Origin: Rhodanobacteraceae bacterium
Lineage (GTDB): Bacteria; Pseudomonadota; Gammaproteobacteria; Xanthomonadales; Rhodanobacteraceae
Length of the DNA: 54,357 nt
Assembly: GCA_016790075.1 (NCBI GenBank)
Contig: JAEUPP010000034.1
Span: 1-54,357, forward strand
Direction of reading: 5' to 3'
The notes beneath the pieces were generated by a model. The model was not told the origin of the DNA. It saw only the letters and a list, made by a program, of their open reading frames with translations, and did no database searches. How positions within the stretch are numbered: the first letter of the stretch is position 1; each line of letters begins with the position of its first letter. Made by a program: the position numbers and the translations under genes. Shown piece by piece: positions 10,071 to 33,787 of the stretch.

Positions 10071-10102
10071 ATTGCCCGCGTTGTGATCGCAACGTGGGCA
10101 AT
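10071..10102. terminator. Bidirectional hairpin terminator between narK and the nnrS operon
   Basis: A 13-bp inverted repeat with one G-T wobble: the left arm ATTGCCCGCGTTG pairs with CAACGTGGGCAAT around a 6-base loop. It starts at the narK stop and sits 15 bp before the end of the convergent gene at 10118. No long T-run follows on either side. Position and symmetry suggest it serves both convergent operons. Confidence 0.7.
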
Positions 10103-10117
10103 GCGACCGCCGTCGGA

Positions 10118-10495
10118 TCAGCCACCGATCAACGGACGGCTGTGGTCGCCGAGATGCGACAGCAGCAGGAACCCGGACATCAGCAGCGCATTCAGCGCCC
10201 AGGCCACGGTGAGGAAGCGCGCCACCTGGCCGTAGCGCAGATCGCGGACATTGTCAGCGTTCACCCAGACCAGCCGGGTGATCAGCAGCGAATAGGAAGC
10301 GAACCCCGCCAGCGCCAGCGCGAACAGCGGAGTGCCCGTTTTGTCGAAGGCGAACAGTATCGCCGCGAACAGTAACTGGCTGCAGAACACGCCGTAGATC
10401 CAGAACACCCGCCACAGCGGCCGGGTGCCGCGCGTTTCCGGCGATAGCCATGTCGGCAGCGCGTGATGAACAGAATCAATTGAGTCGGCGTTCAT
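10118..10495 (-). CDS. Small membrane protein, last gene of the TonB/ABC/nnrS operon
   Basis: A 125-residue protein with about three hydrophobic segments: WRVFWIYGVFCSQLLFAAIL, ALALAGFASYSLLITRLVW and ALNALLMSGFLLLSHLG. The ATG at 10495 is preceded by a clear GGAGGG, so I prefer it to upstream starts. It is the final minus-strand gene of the operon and is separated from the preceding gene by about 180 bp. I do not recognise the family. Its placement beside nnrS suggests a membrane role in the same response, which is inference only. Confidence 0.75.
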   Translation of the reverse strand: MNADSIDSVHHALPTWLSPETRGTRPLWRVFWIYGVFCSQLLFAAILFAFDKTGTPLFALALAGFASYSLLITRLVWVNADNVRDLRYGQVARFLTVAWALNALLMSGFLLLSHLGDHSRPLIGG

Positions 10496-10675
10496 GGCAA
10501 CCCTCCAGGTAGTGAGTGATGCGACGCACTGCTGCGCGCGCGCCTGGGTGCAGCGAATGGAACTTACGACCGCGAGCCGGGCAGCGCAAGGCGGCGCCCG
10601 TTGCCGCTGAAAAACATCGGTCGCCAAGTCTTTCCTGCGGGCAGCCGGTCGGCGCAATGCCAGCGCCGTGGCGGC

Positions 10676-11086
10676 TCAGCGGCGTTGCAGATGAACCAGG
10701 TTTCCAACCTTGTCCACGGCGAGAAAGCGGGCAATCTGTCCACCCTTGATCTGCTCGACCATCATGCGCATGGGCTGCACGGCCTCGTCGCCATTCGGCG
10801 GATGCCCGCCGCGGCCAGACAAAGCCGCGACGAACAGCAGATGCCAGTCCGCTCCGGCCGCGCGCGACTCCTCGGACAGCGCCGCGAAATTCGCTATTTC
10901 CTCTGGACGCTTGTCGACGCATACGACGGGCGCCAGCGCGCCGCCCTCGCCGCGTTCGAACGCACGCTGCTCGGTTTCGGCGGCGTCGGGCGGCAGCTCA
11001 GCCGCAGCGAACACGAGCAGCAATCGCTGGGGTTCGGGCTGCGTCCGGGCAGCCTGTAGCAGATCATCGAAGGTTACGAGTTCCAT
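10676..11086 (-). CDS. Conserved nnrS-associated cytosolic protein (often mislabelled 'ribonucleotide reductase subunit alpha')
   Basis: A 136-residue soluble protein starting MELVTFDDLLQAAR. It carries the conserved segments PQRLLLVFAAAELP, ALAPVVCVDKRPEEIANF and WHLLFVAALSGRGG. From memory this matches a small family usually annotated as ribonucleotide reductase subunit alpha, although it has none of the cysteine-radical machinery of a real reductase. It is often found near nnrS and denitrification genes. I chose the ATG at 11086, which has GGGGGAG just upstream. The real function is unknown. Confidence 0.75.
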   Translation of the reverse strand: MELVTFDDLLQAARTQPEPQRLLLVFAAAELPPDAAETEQRAFERGEGGALAPVVCVDKRPEEIANFAALSEESRAAGADWHLLFVAALSGRGGHPPNGDEAVQPMRMMVEQIKGGQIARFLAVDKVGNLVHLQRR

Positions 11087-11185
11087 CAGCTCCCCCACGT
11101 AGTCATTGCAGATCATTGACAGTATTCACGTTGAATCATTGCTGCATCCGCGTAGTCGGGTGCATCGGCGACGCCCGCCGGCGCC

Positions 11186-12418
11186 TCATTCCGGTGCCCG
11201 TGGCCCCACGCACCCCCAGGCGCCGTCACCACGACGACGTGCAAGGTCGACGCCACCCCGCCACAGCCATAGGGCGAAACCCGACGACCACAGGAAACCC
11301 GCGCACCACCATAGAGGTAGTGCGTGCAGTCCAGCAATGCCGGCCAGCGCGCGCACCAGCGCTGCGCCGAGCAGCATCAGCGCCGCCAGCGGCAACCAGC
11401 GCCCTTCGTCCGGGGACAAACCGATATGCATACGGCCGGCGATGCAGAACACGACGAACGCGCCCTGCCCAAGTGCGCCGACGGCGAGCACGTGCAGGCC
11501 GGCGCTCGGTGGAATCGAGGCGCCCAGACGCGCAGCACCGTCGAGCAGATAACCCAGCCCCAGCAGCCAGGGCAGCGTGTACAGCAGCGCCACCCAGCGC
11601 CGCGCCAGCACTCGCGTATGCGGCCAGTCGCCGAGCAGCCCTAGACTGGCTGCCCCCGCGCCGAGCCCCAGCCAGCCGGCGACACCCTGCGCCCCGGCGA
11701 GGACCGCGAGTGCATGTAGGACGATCAACAGCGCTGCGATATGCCGGCGCGGTGGCCGCGCCAGATAGTCTGGCTCGGCGCCGGCTTCCTCGAGGCAGCG
11801 GTTGACCACACGCATCGAGATACGCGCCAGTGTCAGCACGATCAGCAGCAGCATCAGATGCAGGATGAGGCGCAGGCCGGCCAACGGATCCGCAAACAGG
11901 ACGCTGCCGATCGCCAGGTCAAGGCTGCACAGCGTCGCTGCCAGCAGCACGGCGGCTAGCGCCGCCCAGAGATCGAGTTGACGCCGCGCTGGATCCTGCC
12001 AGATCGCGCGCGTCAGCACGAGCAGCAGCCACAGGCACAGTGCCGTCTGGAGCAGAGCCAGCGGCCAGACGCCAATCAGCACAATCGCCGCCGCCGCCGC
12101 GCGGGCGCCGAGCCAGAGCGCGAACAATCCCAGTGAAATGCGCCGGCCGAAGCCACGGGCGCTGGTGAATTCGGGCACAGCAGTCAGGCTGAAGCCGATC
12201 ACTGATGCGAGGCCGAAGCCGAGGATCAACTCGTGCGCGTGCCAAGCCGTTGCGCCACCGGGAAATGCCGGTGCGCGCAACCGGCCGCCCAGCACGGCCA
12301 GCCACGCCGGAACGTACAGCGCGGCGACGGCCGCCCCGGCGAGGAAGAATGGTCGCAGTCCGCACTGCCAAAGCGGCCACCGCAGCAATTGCAGATACGC
12401 GGTCCGTAAAGTCAGCAT
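11186..12418 (-). CDS. nnrS: NnrS family membrane protein
   Basis: Polytopic heme- and copper-containing membrane protein. In other bacteria NnrS protects cells from nitric oxide and associated metal stress. The product is about 410 residues with roughly 12 hydrophobic helices. The segments LRPFFLAGAAVAALYVPAW near the N-terminus, AWHAHELILGFGLASVIGF and LTAVPEFTSARGF are typical of the family; the AWHAHE histidines are likely metal ligands. The ATG at 12418 overlaps the end of the upstream ATPase gene by 7 bases, so translation is probably coupled. Joining of nnrS to an ABC importer in one transcript is notable. Confidence 0.92.
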   Translation of the reverse strand: MLTLRTAYLQLLRWPLWQCGLRPFFLAGAAVAALYVPAWLAVLGGRLRAPAFPGGATAWHAHELILGFGLASVIGFSLTAVPEFTSARGFGRRISLGLFALWLGARAAAAAIVLIGVWPLALLQTALCLWLLLVLTRAIWQDPARRQLDLWAALAAVLLAATLCSLDLAIGSVLFADPLAGLRLILHLMLLLIVLTLARISMRVVNRCLEEAGAEPDYLARPPRRHIAALLIVLHALAVLAGAQGVAGWLGLGAGAASLGLLGDWPHTRVLARRWVALLYTLPWLLGLGYLLDGAARLGASIPPSAGLHVLAVGALGQGAFVVFCIAGRMHIGLSPDEGRWLPLAALMLLGAALVRALAGIAGLHALPLWWCAGFLWSSGFALWLWRGGVDLARRRGDGAWGCVGPRAPE

Positions 12419-13239
12419 GCCTGACGATCCGGCGCAGGGGTCGCAAGGCAGTGGTGCTGAAACCACGCCGTCTCCGGTGCACGATCCGTGGCCTCTACCC
12501 GTTCGTCCGGCGGCAGACCGAAGGCAGCGCGAAAGCCGGTGTCGGCGAGCAGGGCCGTCTCAAGCGCCAGCACGTCACGCTCGCTGCGATCGGTTGCCCT
12601 CAACGCAGGCTGCAGCGCGAGCAGCGGACGGCCCGGCTGTCCGCCGAGCACCAGAAGCCGATCGGCGAGGCGCAGCGCCTCGCGCGGGCTGTGCGTGATC
12701 ATCAGCATCGTGCAGCCCAGGCGCAGGCATTCTCTCAGCAGCCATTGTTCGAGTTCATGCCGCAGTCCGATGTCAATCGCCGCGAAGGGCTCGTCGAGCA
12801 GCAGCAGATCGGGTTCGATCGCCAGCGCCCGGGCCAGTGCGACGCGGCTTCGCATGCCCCCCGACAGGGCGGCGGGATAAAGTGCCAAGTCCGCGGCCGA
12901 CAGGCCGAGCCGCGTGCCTAGCGCCGTCGCGGCAGCGCGGCGCTCGCGCCGTCTGACGCCGCGCGCCTTGAGCCCCAGCGCAATGTTATCGAGCGCGCTG
13001 CGCCAAGCCAGAAGTCGGGGTTCCTGGAACACCATGCCCAAATTCTGCCAGCCGCGCTCGATTGTTCCCTCGCCGATCTCGAGCAGACCGGCCGTCGCCT
13101 GCAGCAGGGTCGACTTGCCGCACCCCGAAGGCCCGAGCACCGCCAGAGACTCCCCTCGCTCCAGTGTCAGGTCCATCGGCGCCAGCGCGCGCCGCGCGCC
13201 GTAGCGGTGCCCGAAACCGCGAATTCGGAGCAGGCTCAC
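12412..13239 (-). CDS. ABC transporter ATP-binding protein (nitrate/sulfonate/taurine type)
   Basis: Cytosolic ATPase of an importer of the NitT/TauT/SsuB group, 275 residues. Walker A is GPSGCGKSTL, the signature is LSGGMRSRVALARAL, Walker B is LLLLDEPFAAID and the switch histidine lies in ITHSPREAL, all in normal order. The start is a GTG at 13239 that overlaps the permease stop as GTGA, so the two genes are coupled. The C-terminal 50 residues have no recognised domain. The substrate cannot be told from the ATPase. Confidence 0.93.
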   Translation of the reverse strand: MSLLRIRGFGHRYGARRALAPMDLTLERGESLAVLGPSGCGKSTLLQATAGLLEIGEGTIERGWQNLGMVFQEPRLLAWRSALDNIALGLKARGVRRRERRAAATALGTRLGLSAADLALYPAALSGGMRSRVALARALAIEPDLLLLDEPFAAIDIGLRHELEQWLLRECLRLGCTMLMITHSPREALRLADRLLVLGGQPGRPLLALQPALRATDRSERDVLALETALLADTGFRAAFGLPPDERVEATDRAPETAWFQHHCLATPAPDRQAC

Positions 13240-14021
13240 CGCGCCACCTCGCGCCAGCGTTCGAGTTCGCGCTTGACCGGCTCCAGCAGGCCGTACTCGA
13301 CTAGCAGCAATGCCAGCAGGACACAGAGCACCCAGGCCAGCGCTGTCGTCATGTCAAGTTGCGTGCGCGCGTCGGCCAGTGCCGCGCCGATGCCGTCACT
13401 GCTGGTCAGGAGTTCGGCCATCACAGCCACTTTCCAGCTCGTGCCCAGCGCTGTAGTCGCTGCGGGGAACAACCAGGCGAGCAAGTGCGGCAGCTCTACT
13501 TCGATCACACGCAGGCGCCAGGACAGACCGAATGCACGCGCCATCGCCGACAGTGCCGTATCACGGGTGAGCATGCCCTGGAGCGTGGCTCCGAATACCA
13601 CGGGCAAAGCAGCCGCACAGACGGTGAACACCGGAGTGCCGTCGCCGCTGCCCAGCCACAGCAGCGCGAGCACCAGCCAGGCGATCGGCGGCATTCCCAG
13701 CAGTACCGTGACCAGCGGGCGTGCCAGCAGCGCGCCCGCTCGCGAAATTCCGGCCAGGACCCCGGCCGCGCAGCCGATGCCCAGCGCCAGGGCAAAACCC
13801 GCCAGCGCGCGGCGCGCTGTGACCAGGAACTCCGGCCATAGCACGCCGGCCTCCAGCAGCGAGTACAGGCGTGCGAATGCGTCCAGCGGCGCGGGCAGCA
13901 ACAACGGCCCCAGCCGCTCGGCCGCGAGCTGCCACCCCGCAACGAGCAGGGCAAGTCCAGCGGCGGCGCTCCATCCGCTCCAGAGCCAGGCGATCCAAGC
14001 ACGCAAGAGCCGCAGGGTCAT
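13236..14021 (-). CDS. ABC transporter permease (SsuC/TauC-like)
   Basis: Inner-membrane permease of 261 residues with about six helices and a BPD_transp_1-type core. The cytoplasmic coupling loop lies around ARAFGLSWRLRVIEVELP (about residues 168-185), equivalent to the EAA loop that contacts the ATPase. It starts 3 bp after the substrate-binding protein stop. Homodimeric permeases of this type work with one ATPase and one binding protein, matching this operon. Confidence 0.92.
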   Translation of the reverse strand: MTLRLLRAWIAWLWSGWSAAAGLALLVAGWQLAAERLGPLLLPAPLDAFARLYSLLEAGVLWPEFLVTARRALAGFALALGIGCAAGVLAGISRAGALLARPLVTVLLGMPPIAWLVLALLWLGSGDGTPVFTVCAAALPVVFGATLQGMLTRDTALSAMARAFGLSWRLRVIEVELPHLLAWLFPAATTALGTSWKVAVMAELLTSSDGIGAALADARTQLDMTTALAWVLCVLLALLLVEYGLLEPVKRELERWREVAR

Positions 14022-14024
14022 GGG

Positions 14025-15023
14025 CTAGCCACGATAGAAGCCCGACTCGGGCAGCCGTCCGCCGATCAGTCCTGATCGATGGGCGAGCAACCGGCCGAGG
14101 AACGCCTCGAGCTCGGGACGCGCCTGCGCGGCGTTCACCGCCTCCAGGCGACTGTGCCCCAGCGAGTCCGCGACGGCGACCGCGTCCAACCGTCCGCTGC
14201 GCCGGGCCACGATCGCGCCGCAATCCTGAGGCGCCGCCATGCATTCGCCCAGCGCACGAGCATGAGCTTGCGCGAATTCGGCACACAACCCCCCGTCGTC
14301 GGCGGCCGCACCCACGGCGACGATACCGGCCTGGGGCAGTCGTGCCGGTCCCAGGCCGGCGTCGGCCCAGGCCTGCTGCAGATCCAGCGTCCTGTACAGC
14401 TCGGGCGCGAACAGCGAAACAATACCGCTGCGACTACGCGCCAGCACCATCGATACGGCCGGTTCGGCCAGCAACGCGTGATCCAGGCGACGGCTCAGCA
14501 ACAGCTGCACCGCATCGAGTGGCGAGGCCAAGTAGCGCAGGCGCAGCTCGCGACGTGCGTCGACACCCTGCGCCGCGGCAAGCTGAGTCAGCACGATCTC
14601 GGGCATATCGCCGCGAAACGGTACGCCCAGTTCCTCGTCGCCCAGGTCGGCCAGCCGGTCCAGCGAGGGCCGGCGCGAGACCAGATAAAGCAGTCCCCAG
14701 GCACTGATGCATTGCAGTCGCAGCATCAGGCCGCGGTTGTACAAGGTGGCGGCTACGTTGCTGGGCATGGCGATGAAATCGGCACGCCCTTCCAGGGCTA
14801 TCAGGCGCAACTCGTCGGGATCGCGCCACGGCAGGAACTCGATGCGTTCGGCCAGCGACCCGAACTCAGCACGCTCGGCCATCCACAGTAGCGGAAACGA
14901 AACCGAGGCCCAGGGACCGGAAAGGCGCAGGATCCGCGGCCGCAACTGGGCGCGCAGACTCGGAGGCGAGGCCAGGGCCGCGAGTGCGGCGGCAGACGCG
15001 TGCAGAAAGCGGCGGCGATGCAT
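14025..15023 (-). CDS. Periplasmic substrate-binding protein (NMT1/SsuA-like), Tat-type leader
   Basis: A 332-residue type II periplasmic binding protein of the NMT1/THI5/SsuA group. The N-terminus HRRRFLHASAAALAALA has the two arginines, Phe-Leu and hydrophobic run of a Tat signal, ending near residue 25. The fold is suggested by RADFIAMPSNVAATLYN (about residues 80-96) and by LDHALLAEPAVSMVLARS. In this family such segments line the ligand cleft. It sits 21 bp after the TonB receptor stop, pairing an outer-membrane and an inner-membrane importer. The ligand is unknown; candidates include a sulfonate, a thiamine or heme precursor, or a metal chelate. This is not resolvable from sequence. Confidence 0.85.
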   Translation of the reverse strand: MHRRRFLHASAAALAALASPPSLRAQLRPRILRLSGPWASVSFPLLWMAERAEFGSLAERIEFLPWRDPDELRLIALEGRADFIAMPSNVAATLYNRGLMLRLQCISAWGLLYLVSRRPSLDRLADLGDEELGVPFRGDMPEIVLTQLAAAQGVDARRELRLRYLASPLDAVQLLLSRRLDHALLAEPAVSMVLARSRSGIVSLFAPELYRTLDLQQAWADAGLGPARLPQAGIVAVGAAADDGGLCAEFAQAHARALGECMAAPQDCGAIVARRSGRLDAVAVADSLGHSRLEAVNAAQARPELEAFLGRLLAHRSGLIGGRLPESGFYRG

Positions 15024-15044
15024 GGTGGACTCCGTGGAGGATTG

Positions 15045-17189
15045 TCAGAACCGCGCCAGCCAGCTGAGCTGCAGGCTGCGGCCGGGCGCCGGCGGTTCGG
15101 CGCCGGTGAGCCCGTCGGTGAGGTGTTCGTGATAATTCCGGTCGGCAAGATTGCGCAGAGCCAGGTGCAGGCGATGCCCGTCACGCTGCCAGGTCAATTC
15201 GGCATCGGCGGTGACGAAGCCGGCGGTCGGGTCCTCGCTGCCGCGGGCGAACATACGGGCCACACGCTGCTGGCGCCGGACCGCGCGCGCCCGGAACTCT
15301 CCGTCGAGGCGCCCGCTGAGCAGGGTGCCGACGTGGCCGTCCCAGCCCAGGCTGAGTTCGTCAGCGGGCATCTGGAACAAGGGCTCGTCGAGATCTCGGT
15401 TGTGGCCTCGCAGGCGGCTGGCTTCCAGGCTCAGCCACTGCTCGGTAGCTACCTGCCGGCGCAAACTCAGTTCCATGCCGCCGATTCGCACGCGACCGAG
15501 ATTGACCGTTTCCTTGCAGGCTCCGGCCTGGGCCGCGGGACAGGCATTGCTGCCGGATGGTCCCGACACGTCGCGGCCGGTGATGTAGTCGGTGATGCGG
15601 TTCTCGAACAGCGCCAGCCGGTACTGCAGGCCTTCCTGTTCGCCTTTTGCGCCGAGCTCGAACTGGGTGGACACCTCTGGCCGGATCTGCGGATTGCCGA
15701 GATAGTAGTAGCCGTCGCTGCGCGGCGAGGCCTCGAAGCGTTCACGCATCTCCCCGGCCCGGAAGCCGCGCGCCACGCTGGCATACGGGTGCAGGCCCTG
15801 ATGCAGGGGCCAGACCAGTCCCAGGTTGCCGGAAAATGCGCCGTCAGTGCGTGCCAGCGGCTGGCCCCGCCCGCCACCCGCGACCGTCGCAGCGCGCCCC
15901 TCGACCCGATCCCAGCGCAGCCCGCTGAGCAGTTGCAACGGCCCGAAGTCCATGTCGTCCTGCACGAACACGCCCGTCGACTCGATACGGCCGTCGACGA
16001 AGGGAGGGCTTGGCTGCAGCGCGAACGTGGGCGGCGCCGCGATCAGGCGCTCGGGACTGGCCTGCATGCGCCAGTACTGAATTCCCAGCAGACGGCGGTG
16101 TCCGGCATCGATCCAGCGATCGAGGCGCAAGTCGGCACCGTCGGAACGGAAACCGACCTGCGTTTGGCTCAGATCGCGCGCCGCCGTCGTCGCCAGCGGT
16201 CCGTTGATGCGGCCGAAAATCGCCCGTTGCATTTGCTGCCGGTAAAAGCGGAGATCCCAGTTCCAGCCTGCTGGTCCGGCCCCGGCGTGGGCCAGGCCGA
16301 GTTCGACAAGACGCCTCTCCTGCTCGGGCGAATAAACCGTGGTGCTGCCAACCTGCGCGAGCGGGTGCGGCCTCGTTGATCCCGGATACGCGACGTCGAG
16401 ATCGCGCTGTCCCTGCAGCGAAAGTCGCGCTTCGAGCGCATCGCCGAGGCGCTGGCGGAACTGGCCGATCAGCGCGCGACTACGATAGCCCGTGTCAGCC
16501 ACGCGTCCTGACGGGGCGAGATAGTCGTCCTGGTCGAGGCTGGCGCCGCCGAGGACGAGCGCGGAATCCGCGTCATGCCAGCGTGCCAGCGCAGACATGC
16601 CGATGCCGTGGCTCGCGCCGTCGAGCTGGCTCCCCAGCTCATAGCGCGGCGTTTCGTCGAAACGCGCCTGCGGCGTCAGCACGTTGACAACACCGCCTAG
16701 CGCTCCGCTGCCGTACAACACCGACGCCGGACCTTTCACGACTTCGACGCGTTCGGCCAGCCCCAGGCTCAGGAACGAAGCGATTGCGCCGGCCGGCTGG
16801 GCCGAATTCAGGCGCATGCCGTCGGCGAGGACCACGACGCTCTCTTTCTTCAGTCCTCGCAGTACCGGGTTCTGACCCTGCGCCCCGTCGGCAGCGACGG
16901 CCAGACCGGCGCGGCCGCGCAGCAGATCGCCCAGGGTGCGATAGCCGTTTCCAGCGATTTCGTCGCGCCCGCTGACGATCACGGCCGCCGGCGTGGCAAG
17001 GTCGGCGGCGGCATATCCCTTGGCGCTGATCACGACAGTGTCCAGGCAGGACAGCTCTTCCACCAGGCAGGCCTCTATCGCAGGCGCCGTTTCCGCCCAG
17101 ACGGAATACGGACCGAGGCCGAGGGCAATGGAGACAGCGAGCGCCAGCACGCGGGGCGGACGGCGGAGACGGACGGCGAGTGAACGCAT
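15045..17189 (-). CDS. TonB-dependent outer-membrane receptor, first gene of the ABC/nnrS operon
   Basis: A 714-residue outer-membrane receptor. A signal peptide (about residues 1-32, ending SVWAET) precedes a TonB-box-like DTVVISA. The plug domain spans about residues 60-170, with VLRGLKKESVVVLADGMRL and VEVVKGPASVLYGSGALGGV. A beta-barrel follows, ending in LQLSWLARF with the expected C-terminal Phe. Two cysteines lie between signal and plug (ACLVEELSC). Overall it resembles the OprC/NosA and heme/siderophore receptors, without the Met/His-rich stretch of the copper receptors. It is the promoter-proximal gene, and an FNR-like palindrome lies 65 bp upstream of its ATG. Confidence 0.92.
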   Translation of the reverse strand: MRSLAVRLRRPPRVLALAVSIALGLGPYSVWAETAPAIEACLVEELSCLDTVVISAKGYAAADLATPAAVIVSGRDEIAGNGYRTLGDLLRGRAGLAVAADGAQGQNPVLRGLKKESVVVLADGMRLNSAQPAGAIASFLSLGLAERVEVVKGPASVLYGSGALGGVVNVLTPQARFDETPRYELGSQLDGASHGIGMSALARWHDADSALVLGGASLDQDDYLAPSGRVADTGYRSRALIGQFRQRLGDALEARLSLQGQRDLDVAYPGSTRPHPLAQVGSTTVYSPEQERRLVELGLAHAGAGPAGWNWDLRFYRQQMQRAIFGRINGPLATTAARDLSQTQVGFRSDGADLRLDRWIDAGHRRLLGIQYWRMQASPERLIAAPPTFALQPSPPFVDGRIESTGVFVQDDMDFGPLQLLSGLRWDRVEGRAATVAGGGRGQPLARTDGAFSGNLGLVWPLHQGLHPYASVARGFRAGEMRERFEASPRSDGYYYLGNPQIRPEVSTQFELGAKGEQEGLQYRLALFENRITDYITGRDVSGPSGSNACPAAQAGACKETVNLGRVRIGGMELSLRRQVATEQWLSLEASRLRGHNRDLDEPLFQMPADELSLGWDGHVGTLLSGRLDGEFRARAVRRQQRVARMFARGSEDPTAGFVTADAELTWQRDGHRLHLALRNLADRNYHEHLTDGLTGAEPPAPGRSLQLSWLARF

Positions 17190-17247
17190 CGTGGGAAGTT
17201 CGGTAGTTGTGACGCCCTCATTGTTAGTTAATGCGAATCATTTTCAT

Positions 17248-17261
17248 CTGACCCAGGTCAA
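17248..17261 (-). promoter_or_regulatory. FNR/DNR-like operator for the TonB receptor operon
   Basis: On the minus strand the site reads TTGAC-CTGG-GTCAG, with the spacing of the FNR consensus TTGAT-N4-ATCAA and intact TGA/TCA cores. Its centre (17254.5) is about 65 bp upstream of the receptor ATG at 17189. That distance fits activation from about -41.5 with a leader of some 24 bases. Confidence 0.55.
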
Positions 17262-17407: not shown

Positions 17408-18406
17408 ATGCTGCTCGTATGCCCTGCCGGCAACCTGCCCGGCTTAATTGCTGCCGTGGATGCCGGCGCAGACGCGGTCTATCTCGGTTTCCGTGACCAG
17501 ACCAATGCGCGTGCATTCGCCGGGCTGAACTTCGGCGACGCGGATCTGAGGGCTGGTGTCGCCTATGCACAAGCCCGCGGTCGCAAGGTCTATGTCGCGC
17601 TCAATACTTACCCCGGCCCGTCGCGCGTCGCGCAGTGGCAGGGCGCCGTCGACCGTGCCGCCGAATTCGGCGCGGACGCAATCATCGCCGCCGATGCGGG
17701 GCTGCTCGCCTACGCCGCGCGCACGCATCCGCGACTGGACCGTCACTTATCGGTGCAGGGCTCAGCCACGACGCAGGCAGCACTGAGCTGGTACCACGAA
17801 CACTTCGGAATCAGCCGGGCGGTGCTACCGCGCGTACTGTCGGTGCAGCAGGTCGAGCGCATCTGCGAACAGTCTCCGGTGCCGCTGGAGGTTTTCGCGT
17901 TCGGCAGTCTATGCATCATGGTCGAAGGGCGCTGCCAGCTATCCAGTTATGTCACCGGACAATCGCCGAATCGCCACGGCGTCTGCTCACCGGCCAGTTT
18001 CGTGCGCTGGGAGGACCACGCCGACGGTAGCCGCACGGTGCGCCTCAACTCGGTGCTGCTGGACGTCTACGCCTCGGGCGAGGCGGCCGGCTACCCCACC
18101 GTCTGCAAAGGCCGCTTCGTGGTCGGCGGCGAGACCTTCCACGCACTGGAGGAGCCGACCAGCTTGAACACGCTGTCGCTGCTTCCGCGGCTGCGCTCGG
18201 CCGGCGTTGCCGCCCTCAAGATCGAAGGTCGTCAGCGCAGTAGTGCCTACATCCGGACCGTGACGCGGGTCTGGCGCGAGGCTATCGATCGCCTGCGCCA
18301 GGACACCGACCGCTGGCGCGAGCTGCCCGAGTGGAATGCGGCGCTGTCGGCCCACGCCGAAGGCCATCAGACCACGCTGGGTCCTTACCATCGCTCGTGG
18401 CACTGA
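17408..18406 (+). CDS. ubiU: UbiU, O2-independent ubiquinone hydroxylation component (U32 family)
   Basis: Iron-sulfur protein of the U32 'peptidase' family that works with UbiV. Together they hydroxylate ubiquinone precursors without oxygen, using prephenate as the oxygen donor in E. coli. The product has 332 residues, starting MLLVCPAGNLPGLIAAVDAG. Four cysteines fall at residues 169, 176, 193 and 233, almost exactly where E. coli UbiU binds its [4Fe-4S] cluster (169, 176, 193, 232). ubiV begins 4 bp later. Its place between the nar and nnrS operons fits the need for ubiquinone during nitrate respiration. Confidence 0.95.
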   Translation: MLLVCPAGNLPGLIAAVDAGADAVYLGFRDQTNARAFAGLNFGDADLRAGVAYAQARGRKVYVALNTYPGPSRVAQWQGAVDRAAEFGADAIIAADAGLLAYAARTHPRLDRHLSVQGSATTQAALSWYHEHFGISRAVLPRVLSVQQVERICEQSPVPLEVFAFGSLCIMVEGRCQLSSYVTGQSPNRHGVCSPASFVRWEDHADGSRTVRLNSVLLDVYASGEAAGYPTVCKGRFVVGGETFHALEEPTSLNTLSLLPRLRSAGVAALKIEGRQRSSAYIRTVTRVWREAIDRLRQDTDRWRELPEWNAALSAHAEGHQTTLGPYHRSWH

Positions 18407-18410
18407 CGAG

Positions 18411-19286
18411 ATGCGACTGACCCTCGGGCCCCTGCAGTACTTCTGGCCGCGCCGGCAGGTGCTGGACTTTTATGCCGAAAGCCTCGACTGGCCGTTGGAC
18501 GTGGTCTATCTCGGCGAGACCGTCTGCAGCAAGCGCCGCGAACTGAATCTGCGCGACTGGGTCGGACTGGCCGAGCAGCAGACTAAGGCGGGGCGCGAGG
18601 TTGTGCTCTCCTCGCTGGCCCTGATAGAGGCCGAATCCGAACTCGGCGCCCTGCGCCGGCTCGCCGGACTGGGCAACGTTCGCATCGAGGCCAACGACAT
18701 CTCGGCCGTGCAGGTCTGCCGCCGGCACGGCGTGCCCTTCGTGGGCGGTCCGAGCCTCAATGTCTACAACCTCGAAACCCTACGCCTGCTGCAGGACGAC
18801 GGGCTTTACCGGCTGGTGCTGAACGTCGAGATGGGATGCGAACTGGTGGCAGAGCTGCGCCAGGCCGCGGCCGCGGCCGGCTGCGATCTGCCTGAGCTCG
18901 AGCTGATCGCCTGGGGCCGTCTGCCGCTGTCTTACTCGGCACGTTGCTTCACGGCGCGCGCGCTGGATCTCGCCAAGGATCAATGCGGATTCCGCTGCAT
19001 CGAATACCCGGACGGGCTGCCGCTATCCACCCGCGAGGGCCGGCACTTCCTGACCATCAACGGCGTGCAGATGCAGGGTGCCGAGAACTGCGACCTGCTG
19101 CCGGAATGGACGGAGCTTGCCGCCGCCGGCATCGTGCTGCTGCGGCTGTACCCGCAGCAGCACGGCACTGCACAGGCAGTACGCCGCTTCGACGCTGTGC
19201 GCGGAGGGGCGGCAGTGCCACCGCGCGAGCCGGGCTGCACGGCCGGCTACTGGAGCGGCCTGCCGGGCATGCAGCCGCCACCATGA
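18411..19286 (+). CDS. ubiV: UbiV, O2-independent ubiquinone hydroxylation component (U32 family)
   Basis: Partner of UbiU in the anaerobic hydroxylation heterodimer. The 291-residue product carries cysteines at 39, 179, 192 and 196, matching the cluster ligands 39, 180, 193 and 197 of E. coli UbiV. They lie in ETVCSKRRE and SARCFTARALDLAKDQCGFR. The ATG at 18411 is 4 bp past the ubiU stop, so co-translation is expected. Nothing appears truncated. Confidence 0.95.
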   Translation: MRLTLGPLQYFWPRRQVLDFYAESLDWPLDVVYLGETVCSKRRELNLRDWVGLAEQQTKAGREVVLSSLALIEAESELGALRRLAGLGNVRIEANDISAVQVCRRHGVPFVGGPSLNVYNLETLRLLQDDGLYRLVLNVEMGCELVAELRQAAAAAGCDLPELELIAWGRLPLSYSARCFTARALDLAKDQCGFRCIEYPDGLPLSTREGRHFLTINGVQMQGAENCDLLPEWTELAAAGIVLLRLYPQQHGTAQAVRRFDAVRGGAAVPPREPGCTAGYWSGLPGMQPPP

Positions 19287-19380
19287 GCACGGCTGCCGCA
19301 TCGGAGCACGCGTTCGTCATTGCCCTGAGTCCGCAGCCGGCAAACGGGCCGGTCCCTTCCTCTTCCATCGGAACCAAGTC

Positions 19381-19677
19381 ATGAGTCAAGACAAACTGGA
19401 ACGCGTGCATTACGCCCTGGAACTACTCGACACGGCACATGCCGCGCTGCTACGCCTGTGCCACCTGGATGCGCCGAAGTCGATCCTGCATACGTTGCGC
19501 ACGGTCGACAGGGAGCGCGAACACCTGCTCGGCGCGCTCGGCCTCGGCGAACCCGATCTCGCGCGGGCCTGGATGAGCTGCGAGCCCCGAGCCGCGGAGA
19601 CGGAAAGACCGGACCTCGGCCTTGGCGATAAGTCGTCTGCTCGCCGACCCTGCCTCGCGCCGGGCCGCCGGGTGTGA
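19381..19677 (+). CDS. Small protein of unknown function after ubiV
   Basis: A 98-residue product. The first 60 residues look helical (MSQDKLERVHYALELLDTAH and following), while the last 35 are basic and low in complexity. It begins 94 bp after ubiV, with only a weak ribosome-binding site (GGAAC). Its stop lies 9 bp from the convergent ubiT stop. I do not recognise the family. It may be the last gene of the ubiUV transcript or a partly decayed gene. Confidence 0.5.
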   Translation: MSQDKLERVHYALELLDTAHAALLRLCHLDAPKSILHTLRTVDREREHLLGALGLGEPDLARAWMSCEPRAAETERPDLGLGDKSSARRPCLAPGRRV

Positions 19678-19685
19678 CGCCGGTG

Positions 19686-20207
19686 CTATCCGTCGATCTC
19701 GCGGCTCGAGCGCGATGACGCACGTGCCCAGTCGGCAAACCGCGCCGCGCGGTTAAGAACAATGCGCAAAGGCAGCGGCACCTGCGCCCAGTCGAGCTGG
19801 TCGAGGAGATTGCGTGCGGTGAGGCCGAGTTCGGTGTCGCCGGTAAGCCCTAGCCGGCGCTGGAAAAACAGCGTGTCCGCGTCTTCGAGTCGGCTGGCCA
19901 GCAGCAGCAGATCCGTAAGCGTGCCCTGCACACGCGCCTCAATTGCCGCATCTCCCTCGTCCGACGAGGCGATCCGGACATGACCGGCATTCACGCGCAC
20001 GGCGAAGCGCAGTCCGAGATCGAGTACGTCGATGCCCAGCACCCGCCCTTCCAGCGCGAGCAGTTCACCACGTTCCAGCGCGTCAGCCAGTACGGTAGCA
20101 GCGGCACGCTCGAAAACTTGCGCCAGCATCCGACGGGGAACGAGTCGCATCGGGAGCGCCCAGCGCCGGGGCGGGGGCAGAAATCGCAACAGAGATGAAA
20201 AGGACAT
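19686..20207 (-). CDS. ubiT: UbiT, SCP2-domain lipid-binding accessory factor of anaerobic ubiquinone synthesis
   Basis: A 173-residue protein with an SCP2 (sterol carrier protein 2) domain over most of its length: ELLALEGRVLGIDVLDLGL, then AAIEARVQGTLTDLLLLASR and DTLFFQRRLGLTGDTELGL. UbiT carries hydrophobic ubiquinone intermediates to the anaerobic pathway. The ATG at 20207 gives the usual family length. It is convergent with ubiUV, and an FNR-like palindrome is centred 65 bp upstream. Having ubiT, ubiU and ubiV together makes the assignment firm. Confidence 0.92.
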   Translation of the reverse strand: MSFSSLLRFLPPPRRWALPMRLVPRRMLAQVFERAAATVLADALERGELLALEGRVLGIDVLDLGLRFAVRVNAGHVRIASSDEGDAAIEARVQGTLTDLLLLASRLEDADTLFFQRRLGLTGDTELGLTARNLLDQLDWAQVPLPLRIVLNRAARFADWARASSRSSREIDG

Positions 20208-20265
20208 TCGGTAGGTATCCGACAACGGCAGGTGACAAGACTGCCTTTCATCACCCTCCCCTGCT

Positions 20266-20279
20266 CTGATCCACATCAA
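20266..20279 (-). promoter_or_regulatory. FNR/DNR-like operator for ubiT
   Basis: On the minus strand the site reads TTGAT-GTGG-ATCAG, nine of ten positions of the FNR consensus. It is the best match of the three boxes in this region. Its centre (20272.5) is about 65 bp upstream of the ubiT ATG. Confidence 0.65.
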
Positions 20280-20321
20280 TACGGCGGCGGGAAACGTGGG
20301 GGTGAGGCAACTTAAGGTCAA

Positions 20322-21924: not shown

Positions 21925-21991
21925 GCAAGCCTCGCGGTTGATCGTGGCGCCGTGCTGTGCGCGGCCGTTTCGTCATTCCCGTGGAGTTCTC

Positions 21992-23293
21992 ATGCTGTCC
22001 CTATATCGTTTTCTCCCGCGCGGCTTCTGCCAGGCGCACGCGTCACTTCGTTTTCTTCTGGCCGTACTGACCGCCCTCGTTGCTGGCACGGCCGTGTCGG
22101 CGAACCTCATGTCCTTGTCGTTGATGGATGCTGTCCAGTCGGCCGAACGCCACGCGCCAGAATTGCGTGCGCGAGCGGCGGGCGTGACTGCCGCTGAAGC
22201 TGCGGTGGGTCCCGCCGGCCAGTTACCAGACCCCGAGCTCATCGTGGGTCTGCAGAACCTGCCGGTGACCGGCGACGACGCCTTCAGCACCACGCGCGAC
22301 TTTATGACCATGCGCACGGTCGGCATCGCGCAGCAGCTCCCGCGGCGGGAGAAACGCCGCTTGCGCAGCGAACGCGCCGCGACCGATGTGGACCGTGAAC
22401 GGGCCCTGTTGACGAACGAGCAGCTCGTAGTGCGCGAAGCCGTGGCGCGATCCTGGATTGCTGCGGCATCCGCCGAACACCGCCTGACACTGCTGACCGC
22501 GCTGCAGCCGCGGGCCAACGCGCAGCTGGCCGCGGCCACCGCCGCGCTGACCGCCGGACGCGCGACGGCCGCGGAAGGCATCGCCGCACGTTCGGCGATC
22601 GCGACGTTGCAGGATCGCCTCGATGCCGCGCGGGCCGACCGCGACACGGCACGCACGGAACTGGCGCGCTGGTTGCCGGACCTGGGCGATCGTCCGCTCG
22701 GCGAACCGCCGGACTGGCGCGATCTAGGCGGCGATCCCGAATCACTGGTGAGGAACATCGCGCACCACCGCGAGTTGCTGGCTTATGACGCCGCCGAACG
22801 TGCCGCTACCGCCGACGTGGCGCTTGCCCGAGCCGAGAAGCGGCCCGACTGGTCACTCGAGTTCGCGTACGCGCAGCGCGGACCGCAATTCTCCAACATG
22901 GTGTCGGTGCAGTTTCGGGTGCCGCTGGCGCTGTTCGCTGCGCATCGGCAAGACCCGCTCATCGCGTCGAAGCAAGCGCTGGTTACGCGCATTGACGCGG
23001 AGCGCCAGGCGGCCCAGCGCATGCACGGCGCCGAGTTGCGCAAGACGCTTACGACCTGGCGCAGCGCGGCCGATCGCCTGGCGCGCTATGAGCGTGAGCT
23101 GCTACCGCTGAGCGAAGACCGCGCAGACGCGGTAATTGCGGCCTACCGCGGCGGTCGCGGCGACCTCACCGCATCACTGCGCGCACTGGACGAAGCCATC
23201 GAGCAACGGCTGGCTTACACCGACCTGCAGAACACTCTGGGGCAAGCCTGGGCGACGCTGTATTTCGCGTTTCCGACGGAGCGAACGCCATGA
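21992..23293 (+). CDS. Outer-membrane efflux protein (TolC/CusC/CzcC type)
   Basis: Outer-membrane channel of a tripartite metal efflux pump, about 433 residues. A hydrophobic leader ending near VSAN is followed by the typical opening LSLMDAVQSAERHAPELRAR of the first OEP repeat. The second repeat starts near residue 235. It is long in helices and Ala/Arg-rich, as for CzcC/CusC. I chose the ATG at 21992 because GGAG lies just upstream; an in-frame start at 21938 would spoil the signal peptide. Its stop overlaps the adaptor start (ATGA). Confidence 0.88.
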   Translation: MLSLYRFLPRGFCQAHASLRFLLAVLTALVAGTAVSANLMSLSLMDAVQSAERHAPELRARAAGVTAAEAAVGPAGQLPDPELIVGLQNLPVTGDDAFSTTRDFMTMRTVGIAQQLPRREKRRLRSERAATDVDRERALLTNEQLVVREAVARSWIAAASAEHRLTLLTALQPRANAQLAAATAALTAGRATAAEGIAARSAIATLQDRLDAARADRDTARTELARWLPDLGDRPLGEPPDWRDLGGDPESLVRNIAHHRELLAYDAAERAATADVALARAEKRPDWSLEFAYAQRGPQFSNMVSVQFRVPLALFAAHRQDPLIASKQALVTRIDAERQAAQRMHGAELRKTLTTWRSAADRLARYERELLPLSEDRADAVIAAYRGGRGDLTASLRALDEAIEQRLAYTDLQNTLGQAWATLYFAFPTERTP

Positions 23294-24780
23294 ACCGTCA
23301 AACTCTGCTTCTCGCACTGCTCGTGGGTATCGTCATCGGCGTCAGCTCGACCTGGTGGCTCATGGGCCGTGGACACCGCGACATGCCGGCTGCGTCGCCG
23401 GCACCGACCGAGAAAAAGATCCTGTACTGGTACGACCCGATGGTGCCGGCCCAGCACTTCGACCAGCCCGGCAAATCGCCGTTCATGGACATGGAGCTGG
23501 TCCCGAAGTACGCCAGCGACGGACCTGCCGACGCGGATACTGTGCGCATCGAACCGCGCCTCGTGCAGAACCTCGGCGTGCGCACCGCACTCGCGACGCG
23601 TGGCACGCAGGTGGCCTCGGTCCGTGCGACGGGGACGGTGACGTTCGACGAACGCGGCGTGGTGGTCGTGCAGGCGCGCGTCGCTGGCATCGTGGAGCAC
23701 CTTGCCGTGCGCACACCGTTGACGACGGTCACCGCAGGCCAACCCTTGCTCACGCTGATTGCACCGGAGTGGACGGCCGCGCAGGCCGAGTACCTGTCGC
23801 TGCGCACAGCCCGCAGCGAGGGGCTGGATGCCGTGCGCGCGGCCGCGCGTCAACGGTTGCTGTTGCTCGGAATGAGCGAAGGCCAGATCCGTGCCGTCGA
23901 GCGCCTTGGGCGCGCCGAGGACCGGTTCACGATCGTCGCGCCGCGTGCCGGCGTCGTCAGCGAACTGCTGGTGCGCGACGGCGCAAGCGTCACGGCCGGC
24001 TCACAGTTGCTGCGCATCAATGATCTCGACACCGTGTGGGTCAATGTCGCAATTCCCGAAGCGCAGACCGGCCGCGTCGCACCGGGCAATGCCGTGACGC
24101 TGGAACTCCCGGGCTTCCCTGGCGAATCGCTCGCCGGCACCGTCGACACCTTGCTGCCCGAACTTGATGTCACGACGCGTACGCAGAGCGCCCGCATCGT
24201 CGTGCCGAACCCGACACGCCGCCTGGTACCCGGCATGTTTGCGCGCGTCGCCGTCACCGGCCGTGCCGCCGATGCAGAGATTGTGCAAATACCGACTGAG
24301 GCCGTAATTGCGACCGGCGCACGCCAGGTTGTCATCGTCGATGCCGGTGATGGCCGCTTCCGTGCGCAGGAAGTGCGTGTCGGTCACGAAAGCGATGGCC
24401 GTACCGCGGTGCTCGACGGCGTAGCCGAAGGCGACCGCATCGTGCTGTCCGGCCAATTTCTGATCGATTCCGAAGCAAGCCTCGCCGGTACGCTGGCGCG
24501 TCTCGATGCGTCGGACACGTCGCCGGCGCCAAGCACGCCGTCGCGGTACTCCGCCGACGGTACCGTCAAACGCATCGACGGCAGCACCTGGTCCATCGCG
24601 ACCGACGCCATCCCCGCGTTGGAAATGGGCGAGATGACCATGACTTTCGTGCGTCCCGAAACCGTGCCCGTCGATGGTCTTCGGGTCGGTCAGCGCGTGC
24701 GCTTCACCTTTGTGCGCAACGCTGACGACGCGTTCGAAATCGCAACGATCGCCGCGTTGCCGGCAGGGGCCACGCCATGA
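23290..24780 (+). CDS. cusB: CusB-type periplasmic adaptor with N-terminal metal-binding motif and C-terminal CusF-like domain
   Basis: Membrane-fusion protein linking the RND pump to the outer-membrane channel, 496 residues. After an N-terminal membrane anchor (residues 6-22), residues 42-72 hold [20 protein letters not shown], the heavy-metal-binding motif of CusB. The lipoyl/barrel-sandwich and beta-barrel regions follow to about residue 390. Residues 415-490 read as a fused CusF-like domain, with [29 protein letters not shown] and VRFTFVR. In E. coli CusF is a separate periplasmic Cu/Ag chaperone. The fusion supports Cu(I)/Ag(I) specificity. Start and stop overlap both neighbours by 4 bases. 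Confidence 0.92.
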
Positions 24781-27700
24781 TCGCGCGCATCATCCGCGGA
24801 TCGATCGCGAATCGATTCCTCGTGTTGCTCGCGGCATTGTTCCTGGCTACCTGGGGCGTGTACGCCGTGCGGCAAACGCCGGTCGATGCGTTGCCGGACC
24901 TGTCGGACGTGCAGGTGATCATCCGCACGACCTGGCCCGGGCAGTCGCCACAACTGGTCGAGGACCAGATCACCTATCCATTGACGACGACGATGCTGTC
25001 GGTGCCGGGGGCCAAGACGGTGCGCGGCTTCTCATTCTTCGGCGACTCGTACGTCTACGTGCTGTTCGAAGACGGCACAGACCTGTACTGGGCGCGGTCG
25101 CGCGTGCTGGAGTACCTCAACCAGGTGCAGTCGCGGTTGCCGCGCGACGCGAGCGCCGCGCTCGGCCCTGACGCCACGGGTGTCGGCTGGATCTACGAAT
25201 ACGCGCTGGTCGATCGCAGCGGTCAGCATGACTTGTCCGAGTTGCGCGCCCTGCAGGACTGGTTCCTTCGCTACGAGCTGAAAAGCGTGCCAGACGTCGC
25301 CGAAGTAGCGACCGTCGGCGGTATGGTGCGGCAGTACCAGATCGTGCTAGACCCGGACCGCTTGCGCGCCTACGACATCACGCAGGCCGCGGTGACCGAG
25401 GCTGTGCAGCGCGCCAACGGCGAAGCCGGTGGCTCGGCGTTGGAACTGGCCGAAGCCGAGTACATGGTGCGTGCGAGCGGTTATCTGAAAACGCTTGACG
25501 ACTTCCGGATGATTCCGCTTAGCGTCGGCGCAGGCGGCGTACCGGTGCGACTGACCGATGTCGCGCGCGTGCAACTAGGCCCCGAGATGCGCCGCGGTAT
25601 CGCCGAACTCAACGGCGATGGCGAAGTCGTCGGCGGCGTGATCGTGATGCGTTCGGGCAAGAATGCGCAGGCGACCATAGCCGCGGTCAAAGCAAAACTC
25701 GCGAGCTTGCGGGCGAGCCTGCCGGCCGGCGTGGAGATCGTCGAAACCTATGATCGTTCGCAACTGATCGGGCGCGCGATCGACAACCTGAGCGGCAAGC
25801 TGATCGAGGAATTCCTCGTCGTCGCGCTGGTGTGCGCCGTGTTCCTGTTCCACCTGCGCTCGGCGTTGGTCGCGATCGTCGCGCTACCGCTCGGCGTACT
25901 CGCCGCGTTCATCATGATGCACTGGCAAGGGCTCAACGCGAACATCCTGTCGCTCGGTGGTATTGCGATCGCGATCGGCGCGATGGTCGATGCCGCCATC
26001 GTGATGATCGAGAACGCGCACAAGCACCTGGAAGCCTGGCAGCACGCGCATCCGGACGACACGCTGTCCGCCGATGCGCGCTGGCGACTGATCGGCGACG
26101 CAGCAGCCGAGGTGGGGCCGGCGCTGTTCTTCAGTCTCGTCATCATCACTCTCTCGTTCGTGCCGGTGTTTACGCTCGAAGCGCAGGAGGGGCGTCTGTT
26201 CGCGCCGCTCGCGTTTACGAAGACCTACGCGATGGCTGCGGCCGCGGGCTTGTCGATCACGTTGATTCCCGTGTTGATGGGTTACTGGATCCGCGGACGC
26301 ATCCCGGAGGAGCGGGCCAATCCGTTGCCGCGCGCCTTGATCGCGCTCTACCGGCCGATCCTAGATGTCGCGCTGCGAGTTCCCAAAGTGACTTTGTTAA
26401 CCGCAGCGCTCCTGCTCGCGGCTACGGCATGGCCGATCAGCCGCCTCGGCGGCGAATTCCTGCCGCCGCTCGACGAAGGTGACGTGCTCTACATGCCGAG
26501 CGCGTTGCCTGGGCTGTCCGCCGGCAAGGCAGCGCAAGTATTGCAGCAGACCGACAAGATGATCCGCTCTGTGCCAGAAGTCGCCAGCGTGTTCGGCAAG
26601 ATCGGCCGCGCTGAAACGGCGACCGATCCGGCGCCGATGGAGATGGTCGAGACGACGGTGCGCTTCAAGCCGCGCGATCAATGGCGCGCCGGCATGACGC
26701 CGGAAAAACTGATCAATGAACTCGACGCTGCGGTACGGCTGCCAGGTCTGACAAACCTGTGGGTGCCGCCGATCCGCAATCGTCTGGACATGCTCGCGAC
26801 CGGCATCAAGAGTCCGATCGGCATCAAAGTCAACGGCAGCGATCTGGCGGTCATCGACCAAGTGGCCACCGAGATCGAACAGGCGATCAAGATGGTGCCG
26901 GGGGTGACCTCGGCGCTCGCCGAGCGCCTGACCGGTGGTCGTTACGTCGACGTCGATATCGACCGCGCCGACGCCTCGCGCTACGGCCTCAACATCGCCG
27001 ACGTGCAGAGCGTCGTGAGCGCGTCAATCGGTGGCGAAACCATCGGTGAAACGGTAGAGGGGCGGCGACGCTTTCCGATCAGCGTGCGCTATCCGCGCGA
27101 ATTACGCGACAGCGTGCAGAAGCTGCGCGACTTGCCGTTCCTGACGGCGGGCGGCGCGCAGATCACGCTCGGAAGCGTCTCGCGAATCGCGATCAGCGAC
27201 GGCCCACCGATGATCCGCAGCGAGAACGCGCGTTTGTCCGGTTGGATCTACGTGGATGCACGCGGCCGTGATCTCGCATCGGTCGTGCACGACCTGCGCG
27301 AGCGCGTGGCTCGGGACGTGGTACTGCCAGCCGGCACGTCGATCACCTGGTCAGGTCAATTCGAGTATTTCGAGCATGCCATGGCCAAGCTGCGCGTCGT
27401 GATCCCGGCGACGTTGCTGATCATTTTCGTGCTGCTGTATATGACCTTTGGGCGCGTTGACGAGGCGGTAATGATCCTGGCCAGCGTGCCGTTCGCGCTG
27501 ATCGGCGGGTTCTGGCTGATGTATACCTTGGGGCATGCGTTCTCGATCGCGACTGCGGTCGGCTTCATCGCGCTCGCGGGCGTGTCGGCCGAGTTCGGCG
27601 TGATCATGCTGCTGTATCTGAAACACGCCTGGGAGCGACGCCTCGCCGCTGGCGAACCGGCCACGTCGGACACGTTGCTCGCCGCGATCCGCGAAGGCGC

Positions 27701-27959
27701 GGTGCAGCGCGTGCGCCCGAAAGCGATGACCGTGGCCGTCATCCTGGCCGGCCTGCTGCCGATCCTCATCGGCACCGGCACCGGCTCGGAAATCATGCAG
27801 CGCATCGCCGCCCCCATGGTGGGCGGAATGATCACTGCGCCGCTGCTGTCGATGCTCGTGATTCCCGTCGTCTTTCGGCTGCTGCGCGAGCGCTCGCTGC
27901 GTGCTTCTGTCGGTCTCGATCGATCTGCTTCTTCCCATGTGCCGGCGACGCCGGCGTGA
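24777..27959 (+). CDS. cusA: CusA-type heavy-metal efflux RND pump
   Basis: Inner-membrane proton-driven pump of 1060 residues, full length for the HME-RND family. Hallmarks include the opening [19 protein letters not shown] and [17 protein letters not shown]. The porter-domain stretch [19 protein letters not shown] and [18 protein letters not shown] hold the methionines equivalent to CusA M573 and M623. The charged membrane residues for proton relay lie in the [20 protein letters not shown] region. The Met pattern points to Cu(I)/Ag(I) rather than Zn/Co/Cd, as does the CusF-like domain of its adaptor. A hairpin follows the stop. Confidence 0.93.
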
Positions 27960-30751: not shown

Positions 30752-30805
30752 GTGCGGATGCTCGGTTGGCGTGGGTCACTCTCGCGGATTTACCGCGAGG
30801 TTCCC

Positions 30806-33083: not shown

Positions 33084-33117
33084 ACTTCAACCGCCACGCT
33101 CAACCGGCATCCGACAC

Positions 33118-33207
33118 TGGCTTCCCATGCGCCGGAATCGTGGCTTCCCATCAACCGGAACGCTGGCTTCCCATGCGCCCGGAACGGTGGCTTCTCATGG
33201 GCGGAAT
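33118..33207. repeat. Four inverted copies of the IS21 terminal repeat at the right end
   Basis: Copies of TGGCTTCCCAT-(GCGC)-CGGAA start at 33118, 33141, 33164 and 33188. They have the same 23-24 bp period as the left end and the opposite orientation. Confidence 0.85.
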
Positions 33208-33212
33208 ATCCA

Positions 33213-33217
33213 GGATT
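33213..33217. repeat. Target-site duplication GGATT, right copy
   Basis: Directly abuts the right end of the IS21-family element; the partner is at 30594-30598. Confidence 0.8.
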
Positions 33218-33332
33218 GTTGTCTTCGAAGTCGAACGCCTGATCGCTAGATCGGCATGGCCATGTCTCGCGCAACACATGGCGCCGTTCCTCGTGGAAAC
33301 GGGGCATCGTCACGGCGACCTCATCGTGACGA

Positions 33333-33713: not shown

Positions 33714-33787
33714 CCCGCGTAGCGCAGGTGTGGATAGCGGACACAGGCGTATTGAAACGGTTTGCAGTATCGGTCGCGGCGCGGACC

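Follow-up and report, generated by a model that had tools for sequence, protein, structure and literature searches.

Contig JAEUPP010000034.1 of a Rhodanobacteraceae bacterium (assembly GCA_016790075.1; contig C80 of the 5.6 Mb genome G000), whose entire 54,357 nucleotides are referred to here as the window, carries on its minus strand a compact set of genes encoding a TonB-dependent outer-membrane receptor, a periplasmic binding protein, the permease and ATPase of an ATP-binding cassette (ABC) importer, the membrane protein NnrS and two small proteins. A preliminary description of this DNA had placed all seven genes in one system for uptake and nitric oxide (NO) defence, and their content and order are borne out by gene calls and by Pfam and NCBIfam matches. 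Here we describe the first five genes (11186–17189) as the core of a conserved module, having its own NnrS clade and a composite promoter element, and we interpret it with moderate confidence as an iron-related uptake module.

Conservation and layout of the five-gene module

Relatives of the module were collected with a five-row profile of the binding protein, which gave 485 matches in GTDB genome contigs; the best 80 of these, i.e., the most similar ones, were kept and come mainly from Rhodocyclaceae, Burkholderiales and Stutzerimonas. The closest named match found for the window's binding protein is that of Tahibacter aquaticus (98%). In these 80 loci tblastn detected the permease in every case, the ATPase in 79 (the remaining locus stops at the contig edge) and NnrS in 72; the eight loci lacking NnrS stop at contig ends, which lie at most 2.6 kb from the binding protein in seven of them and 388 bp past the ATPase match in the eighth, L096. 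A homologous receptor gene on the same strand ends at most 1.2 kb upstream in 67 loci. As for the other 13 receptor positions, one is divergent, one is slightly further off, one is at a contig edge and 10 are without a homologous receptor; in four of these ten (L092, L094, L101 and L108) another TonB receptor lies close by. The five genes are complete, in order and close together in 63 of the 80 loci, and neither this number nor the 72 for NnrS changes under stricter spacing. Since the identical five-gene order recurs in 63 relatives, the gene set is far beyond chance.

The linkage also holds in a broader sample of 398 genomes of the phylum, in which the profile (E ≤ 1e-15) matched at 11 places in 10 genomes, with NnrS adjacent at eight of them, the window counted; no adjacent NnrS was found in G407, in G572 and at one of the two G149 loci. 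Genomes G556 and G566, which have only the phylum in common with the window, retain the binding protein, permease, ATPase and NnrS, G556 having a barrel protein in the receptor position and G566 no receptor that we could see. In both genomes ubiU and ubiV adjoin the module, as they do in the window. The module is patchy at short range, the profile being unmatched in one genome of the same genus and in two of the same family. Its recurrence in the relatives and in the phylum sample rules out an oddity confined to Tahibacter. Among the matches listed from Creative Commons-licensed PubMed Central papers we found no recognisable description of the five-gene operon; the text of a 2005 regulon study (PMC1274295) contains neither "TonB" nor "ABC transporter", and two Nitrosomonas genome notes (PMC4786657, PMC4714114) mention NnrS in one sentence and TonB siderophore transporters in another, with no link made between them. 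The receptor, the importer and nnrS are one conserved unit that is apparently undescribed, as had been proposed. A lack of conserved linkage in other genomes, named in the preliminary description as a result that would refute it, was not observed.

The features of the window are collected in Table 1, for which gene starts were chosen among in-frame start codons. The first five genes are spaced by -7 to +21 bp (overlaps, or else gaps of 3–21 bp), in line with the spacing of mostly under 25 bp reported before; the two small genes, however, follow after gaps of 99 bp (NnrS to the 136-residue protein) and 180 bp. The gene set had also been thought to end at a hairpin, and a 76-base stretch indeed folds there at z -3.5, but the hairpin is without a T-run and a terminator scan gave no terminator at that place. 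Apart from this, sigma-70 and terminator scans of the window gave nothing useful, and Rfam had zero matches in it at gathering thresholds.

Table 1. Positions of the module genes and associated features in the window
Feature	Position	Strand	Remarks
TonB-dependent outer-membrane receptor, 714 aa, plug + barrel	15045..17189	-	Pfam PF00593, PF07715
Periplasmic binding protein, 332 aa	14025..15023	-	N-terminal MHRRRF, twin-Arg-like signal by eye
ABC permease, 261 aa	13236..14021	-	PF00528; SaoP/SsuC/NtrB model matches below cut-off
ABC ATPase, 275 aa	12412..13239	-	PF00005; taurine/sulfonate-type model matches below cut-off
Importer-linked NnrS, 410 aa	11186..12418	-	12 long predicted helices; haem-copper oxidase subunit I / NO reductase fold in predicted model
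136 aa protein, no named family	10676..11086	-	nar-associated, outside conserved module
125 aa small hydrophobic protein	10118..10495	-	nar-associated, outside conserved module
FNR/DNR-type box TTGACCTGGGTCAG	17248..17261	-	9/10 consensus positions
Fur-like box GAAAATGATTCGCATTAAC	17227..17245	-	15/19; begins 16 bp past FNR box start
Hairpin between convergent ends of gene set and narK	10071..10102 (about)		76-base stretch folds at z -3.5; no T-run

The two small proteins, which have no Pfam or NCBIfam match, had been counted as part of the system, and this we reject: of 91 loci that have the binding protein (L021 and L092 being one contig), a single one, the Tahibacter copy L031, has both genes next to the module; there narI, narJ and narH follow them and the stretch stops before narG. 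Members of the 136-residue family turned up in 9 of 274 genomes of the class, the window's own genome counted and one match being weak, and the family lies near nar genes in five of the seven loci examined (L024 and L027–L030, not L025 and L026); in L024 it adjoins the 125-residue membrane protein, with narK and narG further along and moaA-like genes recognised by eye. The two small genes belong to the nar neighbourhood.

On one flank of the gene set the window contains narK, narGHJI, a gene of PpiC type and a second narK, and on the other ubiU, ubiV and ubiT; narG, ubiU and ubiV score above curated cut-offs, and the remaining flank genes were named by eye or from weaker matches. The ubiU/ubiV genes, of oxygen-independent ubiquinone synthesis, are next to the module at 17408–20321 in the window and in L125 and L126. 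In 11 loci (L043, L044, L046–L048, L051, L060, L062, L081, L085 and L090) the surroundings of the module include a protein that clusters with a DUF2325 protein. Further along the window, a CusCBA-like efflux set, an IS21-type pair and Tni-type transposition genes were recognised by eye at 21938–27959 and 30752–39180. The window's genome (C80 together with contig C64) has two narG copies and three nnrS genes, and gave no match for nosZ or for cytochrome cd1 nitrite reductase.

A composite promoter element and a separate NnrS clade

The FNR-like box that had been noted before the first gene is present, and adjacent to it lies a Fur-like box that had been overlooked and is the top match to the Fur consensus in the 54 kb. 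L031 has an FNR box identical in sequence to that of the window. To compare promoters we used 65 unique upstreams of relatives, L031 among them, with gene starts picked by length and with consensus strings, that for FNR/DNR being TTGAt/c-N4-a/gTCAA. An FNR/DNR box matching at least 9 of 10 positions occurs in 48 of the 65 upstreams, as against 0.6% of 1300 mononucleotide shuffles and 4.1% of the upstreams of 1003 other mechanically called open reading frames. The corresponding values for a Fur score of at least 13 of 19 are 29 of the 65, 1.2% and 6.7%. An FNR box of this kind is present in 50 of the 65 unique upstreams, and in 28 of these 50 the highest Fur score falls at offset +16. A composite promoter element recurs ahead of the module, an FNR/DNR box followed, often at fixed spacing, by a Fur-like box (consensus cTTGAtc...ATCAAat...AAt.aTTc.caTTt). 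FNR boxes scoring 9–10 are present in the distant loci L022, L023, L092, L121 and L127; L122 and L123 lack one and score 15 and 14 for the Fur-like box, and L124, L125 and L126 are below both thresholds. In the 300 bp upstream of 26 other nnrS genes, a Fur score of at least 13 was found in none and an FNR score of at least 9 in six, a comparison that sets the operon heads of the module beside nnrS genes that may be inside operons and have their promoters elsewhere. A CRP/FNR-family protein and Fur would be the regulators acting at these candidate boxes, and the direction in which each would act is likewise presumed.

The window NnrS matches PF05940 with 227.4 bits (gathering cut-off 28), covering 1–370 of 371, and belongs to the same family as the NnrS proteins of Rhodobacter sphaeroides and Vibrio cholerae. 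Up to now NnrS has been known as a membrane protein that guards cells from NO. All 34 genomes with the binding protein that were searched for NnrS have it, two to four copies being present in 31 and one in G372, G407 and G572; further NnrS are present in 31 of the 32 genomes with an importer-linked NnrS. A midpoint-rooted tree of 106 rows, several of them near-copies, was built with a quick method; all 80 importer-linked NnrS fall on one side of a branch with a Shimodaira–Hasegawa-like approximate likelihood ratio (SH-aLRT) support of 99, and 26 other NnrS fall on the opposite side. These 26 are what remained of 32 offered loci once six copies of module rows had been dropped; additional NnrS matches that had no locus did not enter the tree. 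The label (importer-linked or other) changes once on this tree, as against about 23 times in shuffles, and the window's genome has two more NnrS, both of which fall among the 26. The importer-linked NnrS is a separate, dedicated clade, which differs from other NnrS also in its importer operon with a Fur-like box and in its own conserved residues: R22, W39, W59, H60, H62, H309, H331 and R356 (window numbering) are common to module NnrS and the 26 others, and E83, W249, D264 and C403 are conserved additionally in the module clade (the long-branch row L089, kept in the tree, was left out of the residue comparison).

The predicted model of NnrS has the fold of haem-copper oxidase subunit I and NO reductase, a fold that may already be known for the family; Foldseek taken alone supports it more weakly, with four matches at E ≤ 0.001 and a template modelling (TM) score of about 0.6. 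Haem-copper oxidases have their haem-ligand His in helices 2 and 10 and their metal-site His in helices 6 and 7. His60 and His309 of NnrS stand at the starts of the predicted second (55–85) and tenth (304–330) helices. In contrast to subunit I (CcoN) and NorB, to which a sequence search revealed no similarity, NnrS has no conserved His in its sixth and seventh helices, as judged from the residue columns.

The cargo of the importer

In its layout, the module resembles FecA-FecBCDE, HmuR-HmuTUV and FhuA-FhuBCD, in which TonB-dependent uptake of metallophores or haem is combined with an ABC importer: the same operon of receptor, binding protein, permease and ATPase is preceded by a Fur-like box. 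It differs from them in that the fold of the binding protein and the relatives of the permease are of SsuA/NrtA/TauA type, and in that NnrS comes last. Because Fur-type regulation points there, we propose an iron chelate as the ligand, which the earlier list of candidates (haem, copper, molybdenum or a sulfonate) had omitted. The neighbours of the module are consistent with this proposal. Genes confirmed by Pfam beside single copies encode FeoA, FeoB, FTR1, imelysin, DUF1513, a di-haem oxidoreductase, a PKHD hydroxylase, ferritin, PepSY_TM, CobN (HmuS-like), ExbB and a P-type ATPase, and at least one iron marker is present in 18 of 52 module loci of at least 15 kb as against one of 39 control stretches of 18 kb from genomes with the module (Fisher p 1.5e-4), a test that is partly circular because the markers were picked from module loci.

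Several observations weigh against an iron-related module. Besides the circularity just mentioned and the unequal terms of the promoter comparison, 34 of the 52 long loci are without any iron marker, the neighbours of the window itself are nar and ubi genes and no iron genes, and the Fur score is under the threshold in 36 of the 65 upstreams. The loci are not phylogenetically independent. SsuA/PqqT-fold proteins with a known ligand bind organic acids and anions, not iron chelates, and the copper model scores best for the receptors of three distant modules. Anaerobic TonB-dependent iron uptake is, moreover, not the usual pattern, because in Magnetospirillum TonB-ExbBD and hmuUV fall without oxygen, according to a passage in PMC9549626. 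The NO part of the reading is weakened by a search that covered narG, the cd1 nitrite reductase gene and nosZ but not nirK, nap or norB: four of the 35 genomes that carry the binding protein have none of the three.

A CobN-type protein lies near the module in L035, L037, L040, L050, L062, L063 and L095, accompanied by an HmuR-like receptor in six of the seven; this set is possibly a proteobacterial counterpart of the hmu haem de-chelatase set of Bacteroidota. In L034, L068, L072, L073 and L076, a P-type ATPase, small glycine/tyrosine-rich proteins and sometimes FeoA/FeoB are encoded downstream of NnrS; in Thauera the combination of FeoAB with a P-type ATPase and small membrane proteins may resemble ferrosome genes.

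If the module were a copper importer, the receptor and the ABC transporter would supply NnrS itself or nitrous oxide reductase with copper, either as such or as a chelate; a role of this kind has been suggested for receptors of NosA/OprC type. The receptors of L022, L122 and L125 have the TonB-copper model TIGR01778 as their best match (178–195 bits, E 3e-57 to 4e-52), the protein in the receptor position of L125 matches OprC, and nosZ is found in 26 of the 35 genomes with the binding protein as against 61 of 398 in the phylum sample. However, every TIGR01778 score, including the 93.2 bits of the window receptor, is below the cut-off of 472.45; the matches to copper receptors are strongest in distant modules, and the boxes are Fur-like. 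The copper site of OprC is made up of Cys, Met and His, but no column of the 69 receptor rows has Cys at 60% or more. There is also no nosZ match in the window's genome and in eight more of the 35. NnrS itself is described as a haem- and copper-containing protein in a passage of PMC10256816, and we give the copper importer a small chance of being right. In the three distant loci the proteins concerned (L022:6017-7903, L122:9462-11381 and L125:9255-11216) match barrel or copper-receptor models and no Pfam plug, and are probably plug-less or equipped with a very divergent plug.

The fold of the binding protein would suit a different cargo, a PQQ-like (pyrroloquinoline quinone), quinone-like or sulfonate compound, that is, an organic cofactor or anion and no metal complex. 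The preliminary assignment of this protein to the SsuA/NMT1 type stands at the fold level, the predicted model being of SsuA/NMT1/TauA type; it fails at the level of families, as the window protein has no Pfam match at E 0.01, NMT1 (PF09084) included, and no NCBIfam match. That of L074 matches PF12974 at 5.3e-10 and NMT1 only at 0.0097, below the cut-off of that model. The closest fold with a known ligand is PqqT of Methylorubrum extorquens (PDB 9b1u, 9b1v, 9ooz; 20% identity); also among the closest known structures is 3hn0, BDI_1369 of Parabacteroides distasonis, the entry title of which names no ligand. PqqU of Escherichia coli exemplifies TonB-dependent import of a small organic acid, as a passage of PMC12124388 reports, and the passages on PqqT and PqqU in PMC12124388 and PMC12828617 do not mention NnrS. 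The main-group receptor is not PqqU. Scores with the PqqU model are 56–108 bits against a cut-off of 1200, and neither PQQ nor sulfonate import readily accounts for a Fur-type element. We regard an importer of such compounds as improbable.

Import of haem, which would serve the haem-rich denitrification enzymes and NnrS, is suggested by the receptor. The best named model of the close group is TonB-hemin, TIGR01785 (249.1 bits for the window receptor, 248.4 for L056), and its best PDB relatives by sequence are ShuA and PhuR; in addition, a CobN-type gene is present in 7 of 81 loci and an HmuR-like gene in 7 of 81. CobN-type HmuS takes iron out of haem anaerobically, as stated in a passage of PMC12583661. 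The receptor scores, however, are below the TIGR01785 cut-off of 316.85. In haem receptors of the ShuA/HemR type the haem is ligated by conserved His residues, one site being in the plug and the other between the FRAP and NPNL motifs, but an alignment with ShuA and the receptor columns gave no conserved His at the ShuA ligand places; some members, the window excluded, have a His elsewhere (YYHVGNP). The SsuA/PqqT fold of the binding protein likewise argues against haem, as the haem-binding HmuT/PhuT proteins are of another class. To a haem importer we give little credence.

Lastly, a plain NO-stress operon, in which the importer merely supplies NnrS and iron has no special part, would agree with FNR-type boxes, which are compatible with DNR control, and with the presence of nnrS in the NsrR, NorR, DNR and NnrR regulons (PMC1274295), but is very improbable given Fur-like boxes in 29 of 65 module upstreams and in none of the 26 other nnrS upstreams, the further NnrS in nearly all genomes with a linked copy and the four genomes without narG, cd1 and nosZ; the last two points also weaken the case for the NO defence proposed in the preliminary description.

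A proposed role of NnrS in iron uptake and its implications

In the iron-related reading, the operon would be made when oxygen is absent, through an FNR/DNR-type activator, and when iron is lacking, through release of the Fur repressor. Iron would enter through the TonB receptor as a complex with a small organic chelator. In the periplasm the SsuA/PqqT-fold protein would hold this chelate or the chelator alone, and either of them would be carried into the cytoplasm by the ABC importer. NnrS in the inner membrane may then keep the incoming iron usable during nitrate or NO respiration, a part of the reading that we put forward only tentatively. The most likely form of this step would be that NnrS stops NO from trapping iron as dinitrosyl-iron complexes; redox handling is a further possibility. 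Passages in PMC4601167 and PMC9246220 report that NnrS of V. cholerae shields the iron pool from such complexes.

A more far-reaching version, which we consider rather unlikely, would make the module clade of NnrS a haem-bearing protein of oxidase fold that does part of the work of an iron importer and is not mainly an NO-stress protein. As a redox enzyme of the inner membrane driven by the quinone pool, NnrS would free iron from its chelate, or keep it ferrous and NO-free, without oxygen. To our knowledge, no protein with the haem-copper oxidase fold has previously been found to serve metal import, so NnrS, if this version is true, would be the first, and a general function of NnrS in iron handling would be suggested.

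NnrS is common in proteobacteria and its role has so far not been settled; the operon gives a direct handle on it in the form of one gene set, one promoter and one binding protein that can be purified. A possible anoxic iron route for denitrifiers and other bacteria, of which we found no description, is also indicated. Such a route would matter for the enzymes that reduce nitrate and NO, which are rich in haem and iron, and hence for the release of N2O.

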